Assembly: GCF_000467125.1 (NCBI RefSeq) | Contig: NZ_BATJ01000006.1 | Coordinates: 1 to 64,000 of the forward strand | Origin: Vibrio proteolyticus NBRC 13287 | Lineage (GTDB): Bacteria > Pseudomonadota > Gammaproteobacteria > Enterobacterales > Vibrionaceae | DNA length: 64,000 nucleotides | Direction: 5' to 3' | Part shown: positions 15,783-51,798 of the stretch, one piece after another | Position numbering within the stretch: the stretch's first letter is position 1 | Layout: every line of letters begins with the position of its first letter | Translations under genes and position numbers: made by a program | Notes under the pieces: generated by a model | The model's database searches: none | Seen by the model: only the letters and a program-made list of their open reading frames with translations | Told to the model about the DNA's origin: nothing

Positions 15783-17414
15783 TTACTCAGTGGCGGTTAT
15801 CTCGTACTTGCGCATTTTATGGTTCAGTGTACTCAAGGGTAGAGATAGCTGCTCTGCTGCGCGTTTGGTGTGCCAGTTGCACGCATTCAGGCAGTCGAGA
15901 ATAACGGTCTTCTCATACTCGCTCACGGCTTCTTTAAGACCTCGGGAGAAGTCTGTATCGGCTTCATCAAGGTTTTTGGGATCCGCAGTGAGAGTTTCCT
16001 GACTGGGTATTGGCACTGACTGCTCTGATACCAATGGTGTCATCACGCCTTCACCGATTTCTACTTGCGTGATGGTTTCGAAATCAGACAACAACACCGC
16101 GCGTTCTACGATGTTTTTCAGCTCTCGGACGTTACCCGGGTAGGCATATTCCAATAACTGACGTCGTACATTCGCACTGAGTCCGGGTGCCTGAGGCAGC
16201 CCCAGAGAGCTTGCACTCTGTTGCACGAAGTGTTCGGCCAAAGGTAGGATATCCGCTTCACGTTCACGCAAAGGCGGTAACGTGATGGGGAAAACATTCA
16301 GGCGGTAAAACAGGTCAGCCCTGAATTCGCCGGATTTGATTTTCTCCATCAGGTTGCAGTGCGTCGCCGCGACGACACGAACATCCACTTCAATCTCTTT
16401 GCTGGCACCCACCGGTCGGACTTTGCGTTCTTGCAGCACGCGCAATAATTTGGCCTGAAGTAGCAGCGGCATGTCGCCGATCTCGTCCAGGAACAAGGTA
16501 CCACCGTCTGCTGCTTCAAACAGGCCGATCTTGTCTTTGTCTGCACCAGTGAATGAGCCTTTCTTATGACCGAAGAGCTCAGACTCCAACAACTGCTCTG
16601 GTATGGCCGCGCAGTTTTGCACGATCAACGGTTGCTTTGCCCGGTCGGAGTTTTCATGAATGTACTGAGCAATCACTTCTTTACCGGCGCCGGTTTCTCC
16701 GCGCAGCAGTACGTCTACAGGCAGGGTGAGCACTTTATCCAGACGGCGCAAAACTTCAAGCATCTGCTCGCTTTCAGCAATGGGGCCGTTGTACTGGCCT
16801 TGCTTGCGTTTTTTAAGCTGCTTGTTTTCCCGAGCGAGGGCTGCGTTGTCTGCACTGAGGTTTTTGATCATATGCCCGTACTCTTCCAGCCAGAAAGCCT
16901 GACGAATACTGTTCGCTGCGATATGACAAAATGCCGTGAGTGCTGATTCGTTGTCGATCACACTCAAGTCCATCAACGCCAGCAGGCCGATGGTTTTGTT
17001 GTCATCGTCCACCAGAGGCCAGGCAAGCAGGTTAGTACTGCGCAAACCAAGCTTTGCCTCGGTTTGGTAAATCGTATCGCAATCGTAACCATTGTACTGG
17101 TACAACTCATTGATTAGGACGACTTCACCATTCTGGATGGCGTAACTGAACGGGTCGTTTTCGCTGGCTAAATCTAAGGAAAGGGGTTTCCACGGATGGG
17201 CGGAGAAAGCGGTTTCGTTGTGGTGGACAATACTGGGGATCAGTGCTTGTCCGGTCTGATCCAGAACGTAGATGATGCCGTGTTTGGAAAACGTCATCTG
17301 CCGGGCAGCGGTTAACACTGCGTCTAAAGTTTGCGCTAACTGAGAGCGATCAGCCAGAGACTGGCTGATCGCAAGTAAAGCACTACTCAGATCGTTCTGA
17401 TTAGCTGAACGCAT
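15783..17414 (-). CDS. vasH: Sigma-54-dependent T6SS activator VasH
   Basis: The product is 543 residues, starting at the ATG at 17414. The longer frame to 17465 would run deep into clpV, whereas this start overlaps the clpV stop by only 14 bases (translational coupling). An N-terminal GAF domain (about 1-180) is followed by a sigma-54 AAA+ domain with Walker A GETGAGKE, the sigma-54 contact loop GSFTGA, Walker [13 protein letters not shown] and an arginine-finger stretch [13 protein letters not shown] Fis-type helix-turn-helix closes the protein ([21 protein letters not shown]). VasH proteins activate hcp transcription with RpoN, and a near-perfect sigma-54 promoter lies upstream of hcp at 20437-20452. 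Confidence 0.93.
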
Positions 17415-20064
17415 AAGACAGCGTTCCCTGTTCATCGACAGAAACGGTGATCTGGGTATGCGCATCGTCTTTGTCGTGAACCAGCAACTGCGTTGACAGT
17501 TGAGGCAGCAACTGACGGTTGATCACGGCATCAATGTTACGTGCACCAGTTTCCGCCAGACGACAATTACCCAGAACAAACTCAACCAGATTGTCGTCAT
17601 AGTTCAGTGTCAGTTTATGATGATTTTGCAGACGCTGAGACACTTTACCCAGTTTATGATGGATAATATCGGTCATGGCGTCGTCAGACAGAGGCACGAA
17701 CGGCAGAACAGACATACGCGCCAGAAGAGCAGGCTTGAAGTGCTGATTCAGGGTCGGGCGGATAGCTTCGGCAATCACACCCGCTTCGATCTCTTTTGAC
17801 TGTTGAACCAGAGATTCAATTTCATGCGTCGCCAGATTACTGGTCATGATGATCAGGGTGTTTTTAAAGTCGATCGCACGACCTTCGCCGTCGTTCAGCG
17901 TACCCTTATCGAACACCTGATAGAACAGATTCAGTACTTCTGGGTCGGCTTTTTCTACTTCGTCCAGCAGGACTACAGAGTATGGGCGTTGACGGACGGC
18001 TTCGGTCAACATACCACCTTCACCGTAACCCACATAACCCGGAGGTGAACCGATCAGGCGAGATACCGTGTGCTTCTCCTGGAATTCTGACATGTTGATG
18101 GTGGTCATGAAACGTTCACCGCCAAACAGCTGGTCTGCGATGGCACGGGCAGTTTCGGTTTTACCCACACCGCTTGGACCAACCAGCAGGAAGACACCGG
18201 TAGGCGCATCTGGGTTACCCAGACCGGCTTTAGCGGTTTGGATGCCTTCTGCCAGTGCATCAATTGCAAACTCCTGGCCTTTAATGGTTTGAGTCAGATT
18301 GTCTTTAAGGTTCAGCGTGGTCTCAGCTTCATCCTGCAACACTTTACCCATCGGGATGCCTGTCCAGTCGGCAATCACATGGCTGACTTCGTCAGGGCCA
18401 ACTTCAAAGTGCACCAGTGGGTTCCCGCCGCGAATTTGCTCAAGTTGTTCCTGACAAGCCGAGATCGCGATGCGTACCGCTTCTTCATCCATTTCTGCGT
18501 AAGGAGAAACGTCAGCGTCTTGATCGTCTTCTGTCTCTGATGCCGGCTCATCTGATACCAGTTCGTGAAGACGAGCACGCAGTGCGATCATCTCTTCGAT
18601 CTGGTTCTTTTCGTTTTGCCATTGGGCTTCCTGTACTTCCAGCTCTGCACGGGTTTCTTCCATGGCCGCTTTTAGATCAGGAATGGTTGCCAGACTATGC
18701 TTATCACCTGTTTGTTGCAGAGCGTCACGTTCCAGCGCTTCCAGTTCACGGGTTTGCGCCGCCAGCTCTTGTTGCAGCGTTTCTACAGAAGCAGGTACCG
18801 CATTCAGGCTGATGTTGACACGCGCACAAGCGGTATCGAGTACGTCGATCGCTTTGTCCGGCAGTTGACGACCGGAAATGTAACGGGCAGACAGAGCAGC
18901 AGCGGCAGTAATTGCGTCGTCACGCACGTACACGTTGTGAGATTTTTCATACGCCGGGCGTAGACCACGGATGATGAGTGCGGCTTGCTCCGGTGAAGGT
19001 TCGTCGAGTTTCACTAATTGGAAACGACGGGCAAGCGCCGGGTCTTTTTCGAAATACTTTTTGTACTCAGACCAGGTTGTGGCTGCGATAGTTTTGACTT
19101 CACCGCGGGCCAGGGCGGGTTTCAGCAGGTTTGCTGCATCGCTGCCGCCAGCCTGATTACCACCGCCGACCAGAGTATGGGCTTCATCGATGAACAGGAT
19201 AATCGGTGTTGGTGAGTTCTTTACTTCATCCAGAACGGCATTGAGGCGCTTTTCGAATTCGCCCTTTACGCTTGCGCCTGCTTGCAGCAGACCCATATCC
19301 AGGCCGTACAGTTCCACCCCTTTCAGGTTGTCAGGCACCTCGCCCTGGACAATTTTGAGCGCCAAGCCTTCTACCACCGCGGTCTTACCTACACCGGGTT
19401 CACCCACGGCAATCGGGTTGTTTTTGCGACGACGGGCGAGGATATCGACGATCTGACGAATTTCCTGATCACGGCAGAATACCGGGTCGATTTCGCCTTT
19501 ACGTGCTTTACCGGTGAAATCAGTAGTGAATTTGCTCAACGCAGAGCCTTCTTCACGTGCCTGAGTTTTCTCGGATGTTGCTTCACGTGCTTCCAGAGAC
19601 TGCGACGTGAGTTCCGCAAAGTTACGCTTCAGGCTGTCTGGGTTAACGCTTTCAAGAATCGACGCGTAACCGTGTTGGCCGTAACGCAGCGGGTTACTGA
19701 CCAGAGTCAGCAGCAAGGCGCCGGTACGAATCTTAGTTTCCGAAAGATCCAGAGACGACACCAGCCAGCTTTCCTGCAGCCATTCGATCAACAGAGCCGA
19801 GAATACAGGTTTACCGCCGTTACCAGTTGGACTGGAATCCAGTGTTGAACGAATGGACTGGCGTAGCAGGTTTTCAGAACAGTCAAAATGCGCAAGCAGG
19901 ACGTCAATATCACTGTTTGGGCGTTCAAGCAGGCTAAGCAGGTAGTGCTCGATTTGAACTTCATTGGCCTTTTCTGATACAGCCAGTGCTGCTGCATCTT
20001 CTAGCGCAACTTTTGCGATAGGGTGCAGACGTTGTATTAAAGAAGAGAGATTAATATTTATCAT
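17401..20064 (-). CDS. clpV: T6SS sheath-recycling AAA+ ATPase TssH/ClpV
   Basis: The product is 887 residues from the ATG at 20064; an upstream TTG at 20118 would add 18 residues with no supporting ribosome-binding site. Order of domains: ClpN-like N domain, first AAA+ module ([23 protein letters not shown]), coiled-coil middle domain with many Glu and Gln (about residues 400-530), second AAA+ module ([27 protein letters not shown]) and a ClpB D2-small-like C-terminus. ClpV disassembles the contracted TssB/TssC sheath. The gene is divergent from hcp and leads into vasH. Confidence 0.96.
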
Positions 20065-20338
20065 TGTCGTTTCTGAGCTTTTAGATTGTATAAAAGTGGG
20101 CGAGATTATACTAAACAATCGAGTGTGGTTTTTTTTATCCGCTAATTTAACTAGTCAATTTTAGTTATTATGTTGGTGGCTTTTTCCACAATTTAAATAT
20201 ACCTAAGCAGGCTTTCGGTGTTTGTGAATTAATTGATGGGTAAAGTGACTGAAGTGGTAGTTAATATGACTTTTTTACCTCAGTGGAATGCCGTTATTTT
20301 CTCTTTATCGCCGAGGAACAATAAATTAATATGGGAGA

Positions 20339-20370
20339 ACAAGATTTTGTTTAAATTTCTAAAATCTTGT
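20339..20370. promoter_or_regulatory. Inverted repeat upstream of the hcp sigma-54 promoter, candidate VasH enhancer
   Basis: ACAAGATTTT and its perfect reverse complement AAAATCTTGT are separated by 12 bases. The dyad centre lies about 100 bp upstream of the sigma-54 core promoter, the usual place for a bacterial enhancer-binding protein site. VasH binding is inferred. Confidence 0.5.
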
Positions 20371-20436
20371 AATTGTGTATAGTGTGAATAAGATGGAATT
20401 TTTACTAAGTCATTGTAATTAATACTATTTTAAAGT

Positions 20437-20452
20437 TGGCATGCTGGTTGCA
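20437..20452 (+). promoter_or_regulatory. Sigma-54 (RpoN) promoter of hcp
   Basis: TGGCATG-N4-TTGCA gives GG and GC at the required 10-base separation, a near-perfect -24/-12 match. It lies 75 bases before the hcp ATG, so transcription would start near 20464. Confidence 0.88.
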
Positions 20453-20527: not shown

Positions 20528-21046
20528 ATGCCAACTCCAGCATATATGTCTATCAATGGTGAAACTCAAGGTCACATCACTAAAGATACTTTCTCTGCGG
20601 ATTCTGTCGGTAACACTTGGCAAGAAGCTCACGTAGACGAGTTTCTGGTACAAGAACTGGATCACGTTCTGACTATTCCACGTGACCCACAAAGCGGCCA
20701 ACCAACTGGTCAACGTGTTCACAAACCAGTTGTGGTAACTAAAGTTCAAGACCGTTGTTCTCCACTGCTGTTCAACGCGTTGGTTTCTGGTGAGAAACTG
20801 CCTGAGTGTCAGATCCGTTTCTACCGTACCTCTGTACAAGGTAAGCAAGAGCATTACTACACGATCAAACTGATCGATGCTTTGCTGGTTGACGTGCAAA
20901 CTCGCATGAACCACTGTCAAGACGCTGCAACTGCAGACCGCGTGACTGAAGAAGTTCTGAAGTTCACTTACCGTGCAATCGAAGTGACTCACGAAAACTG
21001 TGGTACTGCGGGTAACGACGACTGGCGTGCTCCACGCGAAGCGTAA
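20528..21046 (+). CDS. hcp: T6SS tube protein TssD/Hcp
   Basis: The product is 172 residues, the standard length. The ATG at 20528 has AGAAGGA upstream; the frame is open further left but without initiation signals. The start MPTPAYMSI, the central IPRDPQSGQPTGQRVHKP and the end DDWRAPREA match Vibrio Hcp closely. Hcp hexamers stack into the inner tube and chaperone cargo. It is transcribed from the sigma-54 promoter at 20437 and separated from vgrG by a strong hairpin. Confidence 0.97.
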   Translation: MPTPAYMSINGETQGHITKDTFSADSVGNTWQEAHVDEFLVQELDHVLTIPRDPQSGQPTGQRVHKPVVVTKVQDRCSPLLFNALVSGEKLPECQIRFYRTSVQGKQEHYYTIKLIDALLVDVQTRMNHCQDAATADRVTEEVLKFTYRAIEVTHENCGTAGNDDWRAPREA

Positions 21047-21118: not shown

Positions 21119-23197
21119 ATGGTGAATGACGTAGAGTTTAAATTTGAAGTCCTCGGGACAGGACATGAGTTTCGGGTTGAGAGTTTTCAGGTAACGGAAG
21201 AACTGTCCAAACCTTTTCATGTCAGCCTTTCATTACTTTCACTTGATGCTGATATTACATTCGATGCATTGATTCGAAAGCCAGCTCTGTTGACCTTGTA
21301 TGGTCAGGGAGCGGGCTCTGCGCGTTTGTTCCACGGTGTTGTCAACGAGGTTCGTTATCTGGGGCAGGGGCGACGCTTTGCACGTTATCAAGTCGTGTTG
21401 GTTCCACAGTTTTGGTTCCTGACTCAGCGTCAGGATTGCCGTATTTTCCAACATAAAGCGGCGCCGGATATTATTTCTGAAGTGCTGGACGACGCGTCGG
21501 TGACTGACTATCGTCTGGAGTTATCAGGGACTTACCCACCAAAAGAGTATGTGCTTCAATATCGTGAAACAGACAGCCATTTTGTTCAGCGTATGTTGGC
21601 TGAGCATGGTATGTGGTATTACTTTGAACACACTGAAGCCAACCATACGATGGTGATCGTCGACAGCAATGACGCCATTGCTGAACTGCAAAGCACCCCG
21701 CTAAACGCGTCTTACATCGGTCCGATCGTTTACCATTCGGATGCTGGTGGTGTGGCTGACCGCGAGCACATCTTTGATCTGGAGTTGATCAATCGCGTTC
21801 GAACTGGTCACGTGACGTACACAGATTACAACTATGAACAGCCGAAGATCCCTCAGGAAATGGCGTCAAATGGTGACCTTGATCAGGATCTAAAACTGTT
21901 TGATTATCCGGGCCGTTACGGGGACCCTGCGCAAGGGCAAATTCGTGCCACGGAATGGATGGCCGATCATGTCGTAGAGAATCAGCAGATTGAGGCCTCC
22001 AGTAACGTGATGCGCCTTACTGCGGGTTACAGTTTTAATATCGGAGAGCATCCTCGCGCGTCAATTAACCGTGATTTTACCATGTTGGCAGTGACTCACC
22101 ATGGTCATGACCCTCAGGTTCACGAAGACGAAGCGAGCGGCATGCCAACGTCATATCACAACCAGTTTGTATGTATTCCTCGTGATATTGTTTTCCGGGC
22201 GCCAAAGCTGCCAGCACCTATGGTCGATGGCCCGCAGACGGCCGTTGTAGTGGGGCCGGCTGGAGAAGAGATTTATACCGATAAGCTTGGTCGGATTAAA
22301 GTTCAGTTCCATTGGGATCGTTACGCGAACAACGACGAGCATGCCAGCTGCTGGATTCGTGTCAGCCAGTCAATGGCGGCGCCAACCTGGGGTGCGGTGT
22401 ACTTGCCACGAATTGGTCACGAAGTTGTGGTTACGTTCCTGGAAGGTGATCCGGATCGTCCGTTAGTGACGGGGGCCGTTTACAACGGTCTGCACTATCC
22501 TCCGTACTCGCTGCCGGAAAACAAAACACGGACCACTTTCCGTACTCAGACGCACAAAGGCACTGGTTACAATGAACTGAGTTTTGAAGACGAAGCGAAC
22601 CAGGAAGAGATCTATATCCATGCACAAAAGGATATGTCGACCAAAGTCCTGAACAACCGTTATCGTGACATTGGTCAGGATGAGTTTCTCAAAGTCGGCC
22701 GTCACCAGACGAATGAAGTCCACGGCGACCACAAAGAGACGATTGACGGGCATAAGACCACACAGGTGAACAGCACCTTTACGGAGACGGTTGAGCAAGA
22801 CGTTACCGTCACCTATAACGCCAACGAAACTCAGTACGTAAAAAATAACAGCAGCCTTGAAATTGGTGACAATCGTACCACCAAGATTGGTAAAAACGAC
22901 GATCTGGATGTCGGTGAAAACAGCAACCTGACGGTTGGGGCTTCACGCTCTTCGGACGTTGGTGCGGATGACAACCAAACGGTCGGCGGTAACCTGACGG
23001 TTTCCGTCAAAGGCAATACCTCATATAAGGCAGACGGGGCCACACAGATTATCAGTGGTGAAAAAATTGTACTCAAAACCGGCGGCTCGTCGTTGGTGAT
23101 GAGCAGCGACGGCACGATTAAACTTTCTGGTACTTCAATTACCATCGATGGCAGCGCTAAAGTGGTTGTGAAGGGTGGTAACGTAGCGATTAACTGA
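21119..23197 (+). CDS. vgrG: T6SS spike protein TssI/VgrG
   Basis: The product is 692 residues, with start ATG-GTG-AAT at 21119. The first 370 residues are the gp27-like module (NEVRYLGQGRRFARYQVVLVPQFW; IGEHPRASINRDF). A gp5 OB-fold follows (KVQFHWDRYANNDEHASCWIRV; GHEVVVTFLEGDPDRPLV). From about residue 480 there are short repeats forming the needle (TKIGKNDDLDVGENSN), and the protein ends in GGNVAIN with no extra effector domain. VgrG trimers sit on the Hcp tube tip. The next gene starts at the stop codon (TGATG), so the two are translationally coupled. Confidence 0.96.
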   Translation: MVNDVEFKFEVLGTGHEFRVESFQVTEELSKPFHVSLSLLSLDADITFDALIRKPALLTLYGQGAGSARLFHGVVNEVRYLGQGRRFARYQVVLVPQFWFLTQRQDCRIFQHKAAPDIISEVLDDASVTDYRLELSGTYPPKEYVLQYRETDSHFVQRMLAEHGMWYYFEHTEANHTMVIVDSNDAIAELQSTPLNASYIGPIVYHSDAGGVADREHIFDLELINRVRTGHVTYTDYNYEQPKIPQEMASNGDLDQDLKLFDYPGRYGDPAQGQIRATEWMADHVVENQQIEASSNVMRLTAGYSFNIGEHPRASINRDFTMLAVTHHGHDPQVHEDEASGMPTSYHNQFVCIPRDIVFRAPKLPAPMVDGPQTAVVVGPAGEEIYTDKLGRIKVQFHWDRYANNDEHASCWIRVSQSMAAPTWGAVYLPRIGHEVVVTFLEGDPDRPLVTGAVYNGLHYPPYSLPENKTRTTFRTQTHKGTGYNELSFEDEANQEEIYIHAQKDMSTKVLNNRYRDIGQDEFLKVGRHQTNEVHGDHKETIDGHKTTQVNSTFTETVEQDVTVTYNANETQYVKNNSSLEIGDNRTTKIGKNDDLDVGENSNLTVGASRSSDVGADDNQTVGGNLTVSVKGNTSYKADGATQIISGEKIVLKTGGSSLVMSSDGTIKLSGTSITIDGSAKVVVKGGNVAIN

Positions 23198-51368: not shown

Positions 51369-51798
51369 CGTAAACTTATCTAATTTTGGGCCGGCGAGAC
51401 ATGTCGCGTTGGCGACTCAGATTTTACGTCGATTATGACGCAGCAATAGCAGCACACTATAAACATTGACGCTGCGGATTACTACCGAAAGCGTGCTTTT
51501 CACTCCGGAAAAGTTGCTGTTTGCCGTAGGGCGTGCCACCCTTTCTAAACTTGGCTTGTGACGTAAATATGACCGTTTTTACCAGTTATGAGAAAAAATT
51601 GTGATGTATTTCAATTTTTTCTGGCTTTTTGTGTGCTTTTACGAAATAATCCGCGTCCCTTAGTTGTCCCTAGCGGCTTGATGCGATTTAACACTTATCC
51701 GCATCTGAAAGGAATCAGCTCTAATTTGTTGTTTGGATTGGTATGGAATTGGTAGAGCTCGTGGGACCTTGTAAATCAATAATCTTAGTGGGATCCCA
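51369..51798. other. Divergent rnb/deaD regulatory region with long helicase leader
   Basis: No gene is seen in 430 bp. The right half is T-rich. I see no clear sigma-70 pair and no confident hairpin. A long 5' leader would be normal for a cold-inducible helicase mRNA, but no cold-shock box was identified. Confidence 0.4.

Follow-up and report, generated by a model that had tools for sequence, protein, structure and literature searches.

A conserved array of three CAA-N4-TTG palindromes upstream of hcp in Vibrio proteolyticus and its relatives, a predicted VasH enhancer

The stretch at positions 20319-20369, upstream of the type VI secretion gene hcp of Vibrio proteolyticus NBRC 13287, very probably represents the VasH enhancer of this gene, at which three predicted VasH dimers would form a hexamer that acts, with the help of an IHF bend, on sigma-54 polymerase. 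As judged from sequence comparison, this stretch holds an array of three CAA-N4-TTG palindromes that is conserved among relatives in its spacing and in its fixed distance from the sigma-54 promoter, co-occurs with VasH, and is flanked by a base specific to the VasH lineage. All coordinates refer to the window, i.e., the whole analyzed stretch of DNA (64,000 nt; contig NZ_BATJ01000006.1, positions 1 to 64,000).

Genes and sigma-54 promoter at the hcp locus

The positions of hcp, clpV, and the sigma-54 activator gene (Table 1) agree with an earlier note on this DNA, which had placed VasH near hcp. The activator protein reached no NCBIfam equivalog cut-off, and hence the name VasH rests on its domains, on its position beside clpV, and on its presence in exactly those 37/196 genomes that also have the window-type Hcp (see below); likewise, the name vgrG was assigned from domains. 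The V. proteolyticus genome contains four Hcp genes, including an orphan copy (99% identical, contig C40) that has an aminotransferase gene, instead of clpV, as its upstream neighbor. In this region (locus L136, 2454-4198), the place of vgrG after the orphan hcp is taken by a 391-aa frame that carries an XAC2610-related domain (NF047539), has no Pfam match, and is perhaps Hcp-carried cargo. Farther upstream of the window hcp than the array, a further pair of blocks (TGACTTTTTT followed by TTATTTT...CTTT) was noticed by eye at 20267-20306. It recurs, again by eye, in many loci of main-cluster relatives with a divergent clpV, and these blocks are perhaps part of the clpV promoter.

Table 1. Features of the hcp region in the window
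Feature	Coordinates	Strand	Basis
vasH (GAF, sigma-54 activator AAA+, Fis-type HTH)	15783..17465	-	Pfam
clpV (TssH), divergent from hcp	17401..20064	-	TIGR03345, above cut-off
Putative operator 1, CAATAAATTA	20319..20328	.	5/6 core positions of CAA-N4-TTG; same distance in relatives
Exact 10-bp inverted repeat that covers operators 2 and 3	20339..20370	.	Repeat search
Putative operator 2, CAAGATTTTG	20340..20349	.	6/6 core positions of CAA-N4-TTG
Putative operator 3, TAAAATCTTG	20360..20369	.	5/6 core positions of CAA-N4-TTG
IHF-like site, TAAGTCATTGTAA	20406..20418	+	7/9 to YAANNNNTTGATW; consensus from PMC5963220
Sigma-54 -24/-12 promoter, TGGCATGCTGGTTGCA	20437..20452	+	Pattern search; 75 bp before hcp ATG at 20528
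hcp (TssD tube protein, 172 aa)	20528..21046	+	Pfam PF05638, TIGR03344
vgrG, next gene 3' of hcp	21119..23197	+	Pfam domains of VgrG

The element at 20437-20452, which the earlier note had described as a near-perfect -24/-12 promoter 75 bp before hcp, is a conserved sigma-54 promoter. It is the only match to TGGCAY-N5-TTGCW on both strands of the 64 kb, and after dinucleotide shuffling of the 463-bp intergenic region, the pattern appeared on the plus strand in 0/1000 sequences. All of the non-redundant hcp promoters compared here (54/54) have TGG at -24, which is partly by construction since each promoter was chosen as the best match, and their -12 element reads TTGC or GTGC in 17/54 and TTGT or TTGA in 37/54 cases. 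Within the V. proteolyticus genome, the -12 element is TTGCA at the window hcp (20448-20452) and TTGAT at the orphan hcp, so that the two genes may differ in promoter strength.

For hcp2 of V. parahaemolyticus, whose promoter is bound by RpoN, the published site (Table 2 of PMC9817140) is AAGGAGCGTATTTAAAATG, without a -12 box. This string resembles a ribosome site plus ATG and is absent from every hcp locus compared here, and a TGGCAYG-N4-TTG element sits 79-136 bp before the ATG in relatives. Judging from these relatives, and not from the sequence of that species itself, TGGCAYG-N4-TTG would be a likelier RpoN site of hcp2 than the printed string, which suggests that the latter is misplaced.

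The palindrome array and its conservation

The candidate VasH site of the earlier note was an exact 10-bp inverted repeat with a 12-bp spacer. Such a repeat does exist, its arms ACAAGATTTT (20339-20348) and AAAATCTTGT (20361-20370) being 100% complementary across 12 nt, and it lies upstream of the promoter, with ~90 bp between the centers in place of the ~100 bp first given. By itself, the dyad is weak, since 31/1000 shuffles of the intergenic region contain some perfect 10-bp inverted repeat whose arms are 3-30 nt apart. Repeats of this class account for 29 records in the window, many of them nested; a further exact one, its arms separated by 10-12 bp, was seen between long reading frames at 51591-51622. 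In the 4.75-Mb genome, the dyad at 20339-20370 is the sole exact copy, and one other place matches it with 3 mismatches.

That the long dyad ACAAGATTTT-N12-AAAATCTTGT is itself the VasH operator has only the slimmest chance of being true, even though the repeat is exact in the window and the mutual symmetry of operators 2 and 3 is mildly in excess (2.03 of 4 inner bases vs. 1.57 when permuted, sd 0.16). Besides its frequency in shuffles, the dyad covers operators 2 and 3 but misses operator 1, and the four inner bases of operator 2 are an exact reverse complement of those of operator 3 in just 2/32 non-redundant promoters with the array. No second copy lies at the orphan hcp, where the earlier note had proposed to look for one, and of the conservation in relatives that it had called for, the dyad shows none beyond these two promoters, whereas the array is conserved. 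Hence the region pointed out earlier does hold the best candidate for a VasH site, but the 10-bp dyad is not the unit. The conserved unit consists of three separate CAA-N4-TTG palindromes (putative operators 1 to 3) in steps of 21 and 20 bp.

The array was scored out of 18 core positions in promoters laid out from the -24 element. A scan of genome contigs gave 43 loci with related Hcp, which became 44 promoters after removal of L051 (36 bp upstream only) and addition of the window and the orphan. The mean score was 15.1/18, compared with 10.55 for shuffled sequences (maximum 10.91, sd of the mean 0.13), in a set where the motif had first been spotted by eye in the same promoters that gave these first statistics. 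Individually, 38/44 promoters stood out from shuffles at p<=0.05. The array score was not above shuffles in L025, L034, L036, L039, L041, and L049, all of which except L025 have the common type of VasH helix or no vasH in the locus. Scanning two-operator spacings between 10 and 44 bp, we found 36 promoters with a pair at 20 bp, 23 at 21 bp, and 23 at 41 bp, and at most 6 at any other distance.

The enlarged set comprises 80 promoters (54 non-redundant), in which relatives are not independent samples. A score of at least 15/18 with the array starting 116-118 bp before TGG was observed for 32/54 non-redundant promoters (23 at 118, 8 at 117, and 1 at 116), and the other 22/54 score below 15/18. 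The window array starts within the same range, and that of the orphan hcp scores 18/18 and starts exactly 118 bp before TGG. Three operators are thus present in the window, at the orphan hcp, and in the 32 promoters, and fewer are clear elsewhere, e.g., two full operators in each hcp promoter of Aliivibrio sifiae, both beside vasH (L027, L028) and without vasH in the locus (L030, L031). Operators 2 and 3 are conserved in both halves; operator 1 ends in A, not in the final G, in 22/32 promoters. A further 36 loci were examined later, 26 of which are exact copies of earlier promoters; the other 10, mostly close relatives, include 9 with at least 16/18 in place and one (L119) with 12/18. Three more loci (L137, L138, and L139) were retrieved and left out of the analysis. 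In Photobacterium (L036, L039, L040, L041, L042, L048, and L049), weaker diverged operators of the form YAA-N4-TTR were seen by eye near the same distance, and the VasH helix reads PVSTLNHK or PLSTLNHK in the three of these seven loci with an aligned VasH C-terminus.

In the V. proteolyticus genome, when no more than 3 mismatches are allowed, the triple pattern has 21 strand matches, vs. 7 for the reversed control; one match, at the orphan hcp, is exact, and the window and two other places have 2 mismatches each. A composite pattern, defined as a pair of operators followed at the proper distance by TGGCA, was found in 196 Vibrio genomes at 26 places (25 genomes), vs. 2 places for the reversed pattern, and 23/26 places are directly before a window-type hcp (the exceptions are L079, L081, and L094). 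Window-type Hcp (84-100% identity) occurs in 37/196 genomes, and exactly these 37 also encode a VasH orthologue (60-100% identity); when the threshold was relaxed, the next matches were no more than 48% identical. The exact composite is present in 23 of the 37 Hcp carriers, counting the genome of the window via its orphan copy.

Across the family (150 genomes), the composite occurs at 15 places, three of which are the hcp matches known from the genus scan. Among the 12 new loci, an Hcp match adjoins the array in 10 (L176 and L181 have none), although in L178 it lies on the opposite side of the array from the matched TGGCA. At the level of the order (394 genomes), a pair of GC-flanked operators was found in 41 genomes, vs. 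3 with the reversed pattern. Out of 42 such loci drawn and tested, 7 have an Hcp match and 35 have none, a few of the latter being ended by contig ends; many of these 35 read GCAANCGNTTGC, which we take to be LacI/PurR-like. Triple GCAA-N4-TTGC arrays are found ahead of Hcp matches in another three families, namely f6, f10, and f13 (L240, L262, L263, L267, L268, and L272).

Two explanations of the array were discarded: a chance occurrence in AT-rich DNA, by the shuffles and the reversed-pattern control, and membership in the clpV promoter, by the presence of the array at the orphan hcp.

Flanking bases and the VasH recognition helix

A second Hcp lineage, ~51-55% identical, was represented by 20 upstream regions from 13 genomes, out of 27 full-length genes listed. 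It is called here the V. cholerae/V. fluvialis type, with the V. cholerae part of the label being our assumption. The label follows from two loci, L189 and L190, in which the IHF site published for the hcp promoters of V. fluvialis (PMC5963220), TAACTTATTGATT, is present. The 20 second-lineage promoters contain 30 instances of GCAA-N4-TTGC, vs. 0.22 in shuffles, and the 44 window-type promoters contain none. At least one exact core is found in 19/20 second-lineage and 37/44 window-type promoters. The base before CAA in the window type is A in 78, C in 51, T in 15, and G in 0 of 144 half-sites, and in the second lineage it is G in 61/66 half-sites.

The two lineages also differ in their activators. 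Each of the genomes searched (5/5) has one VasH-like gene outside the window type, adjoining the second-lineage clpV, with the recognition helix PKRTLAYK (4 genes) or PKRTLAHK (1 gene). The window-type helix is P[LMVI]STL[NS]HK in 34/35 genes with an aligned C-terminus; the 35th (L025) has AQSTLNMK and no array in place. Contacts between arginine and a G-C pair are common, and we infer a link between the Arg of the recognition helix and the G flank. Two genomes, G028 and G052, carry both type VI systems. In G052, G is present at 6/8 half-sites of the second-lineage hcp and at 1/4 of the window-type hcp, where the single G-flanked half-site counts against a strict flank rule. At its second-lineage hcp, G028 has G at 6/6 half-sites; its window-type hcp, however, lacks any exact core, which makes this genome uninformative on the flank. 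We tentatively consider an operator code with the common core CAA-N4-TTG, in which the flank might depend on how the recognition helix begins (Leu/Met/Val/Ile-Ser for A, C, or T; Lys-Arg for G) and might help to separate two VasH regulons in one cell, as in G052; such a code is possible, if not quite probable.

The flanks also bear on whether the three palindromes could be IHF sites, which we regard as very unlikely. IHF sites are one-sided and ~35 bp long, and at 20-bp steps they would overlap; operators 2 and 3, by contrast, have both halves conserved. An IHF site has WAT before CAANNNNTTR, but T precedes CAA only in the 15/144 half-sites counted above, and G prevails in the second lineage. 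Furthermore, IHF is presumably the same throughout one cell, yet the flanks differ between the two hcp genes of G052, and a separate IHF-like site (at least 7/9 to YAANNNNTTGATW) already stands 30-32 bp before TGG, i.e., between the array and the promoter, in 37/54 non-redundant promoters. The idea draws on the IHF consensus WATCAANNNNTTR, which contains CAANNNNTT and thereby has core letters in common with the operators, and on the binding of IHF to V. fluvialis hcp promoters, where its site is next to the sigma-54 site (PMC5963220); the one-sided operator 1 of many promoters also calls for some caution in this direction.

Nor is it at all probable that the array serves another regulator (of the HapR/OpaR type, the Lrp-type TasR, or H-NS) or the divergent clpV promoter; we rate this as highly unlikely. 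In V. fluvialis, HapR binds this same zone, if with lower affinity, and protects an hcp promoter from -174 to -146 (PMC8018390), and TasR activates V. fischeri hcp by an unknown route (PMC9972734). However, the distance of the array is fixed relative to the sigma-54 promoter, the array is also found at the orphan hcp with its aminotransferase neighbor, and the flanking base tracks the VasH lineage.

Predicted VasH enhancer and known systems

In the proposed mechanism, each CAA-N4-TTG palindrome would bind one VasH dimer via the Fis-type helix-turn-helix. With three sites two helical turns apart, three dimers would be placed on one face of the DNA and could thus assemble as an AAA+ hexamer. IHF would bend the DNA at about 20406-20418, so that the hexamer could open the sigma-54 polymerase held at 20437-20452 and switch on hcp-vgrG; the orphan hcp, with the same layout, would be co-activated. 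The region has the parts of a sigma-54 enhancer, i.e., a -24/-12 promoter downstream, palindromes ~80-150 bp upstream, and an AAA+/HTH activator in the genome, and it also has the three sites per promoter of a NorR-type triple enhancer. It is best explained as a known kind of device, whose operator unit we would redefine as the CAA-N4-TTG array.

The closest likeness in layout is the NorR enhancer of norVW (PMC2941729), where a GAF-AAA+-HTH activator uses three sites that lie upstream of its sigma-54 promoter, and where all three are essential and act as a scaffold for the oligomer. The regulator is a different one, and the likeness concerns layout; hexamer assembly of VasH on three operators is modeled on this system and would proceed by analogy.

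Dependence of hcp on VasH was demonstrated in V. fluvialis, whose hcp promoters need it (PMC5963220), and a V. fischeri vasH mutant expresses neither hcp gene (PMC9972734). The hcp promoters of V. fluvialis, V. furnissii, and V. cholerae resemble those described here in having a sigma-54 promoter with an adjoining IHF site (PMC5963220). The same paper (2018) calls the specific VasH sequences undetermined as yet and suggests that the stretch from -335 to -229 possibly affects VasH, whereas in the V. fluvialis-like L189 and L190 the operators are at about -177 and -155. Among the matches listed in the literature searched, we found no stated VasH site for Vibrionaceae, and the available parts of PMC8855297, PMC9993120, PMC10482370, PMC8018390, PMC9817140, PMC3417189, and PMC8710571 give none, although an earlier publication is possible. 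In the H2-T6SS of P. aeruginosa, hcp2 similarly has a sigma-54 promoter, a cognate activator (Sfa2), and "conserved or inverted repeats" upstream, which are known to us by description; it differs in that the only clear Sfa2 site reported, from ChIP, lies 2132 bp away from the RpoN site (PMC8855297, in the part available). A computed VasH site has also been proposed for another bacterial group, as the Pectobacterium VasH profile of SigmoID (2016, PMC4888284), likewise known by description.

A defined operator, with its spacing and distance, would allow likely VasH targets to be listed in any genome, and one could ask whether two systems in one cell stay apart. VasH couples the supply of spent type VI secretion parts (Hcp and VgrG) to the state of the apparatus. 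Small changes in the array could test the need for three sites in hexamer loading, and the layout would be old, given that triple GCAA-N4-TTGC arrays precede hcp in three more families of this order.
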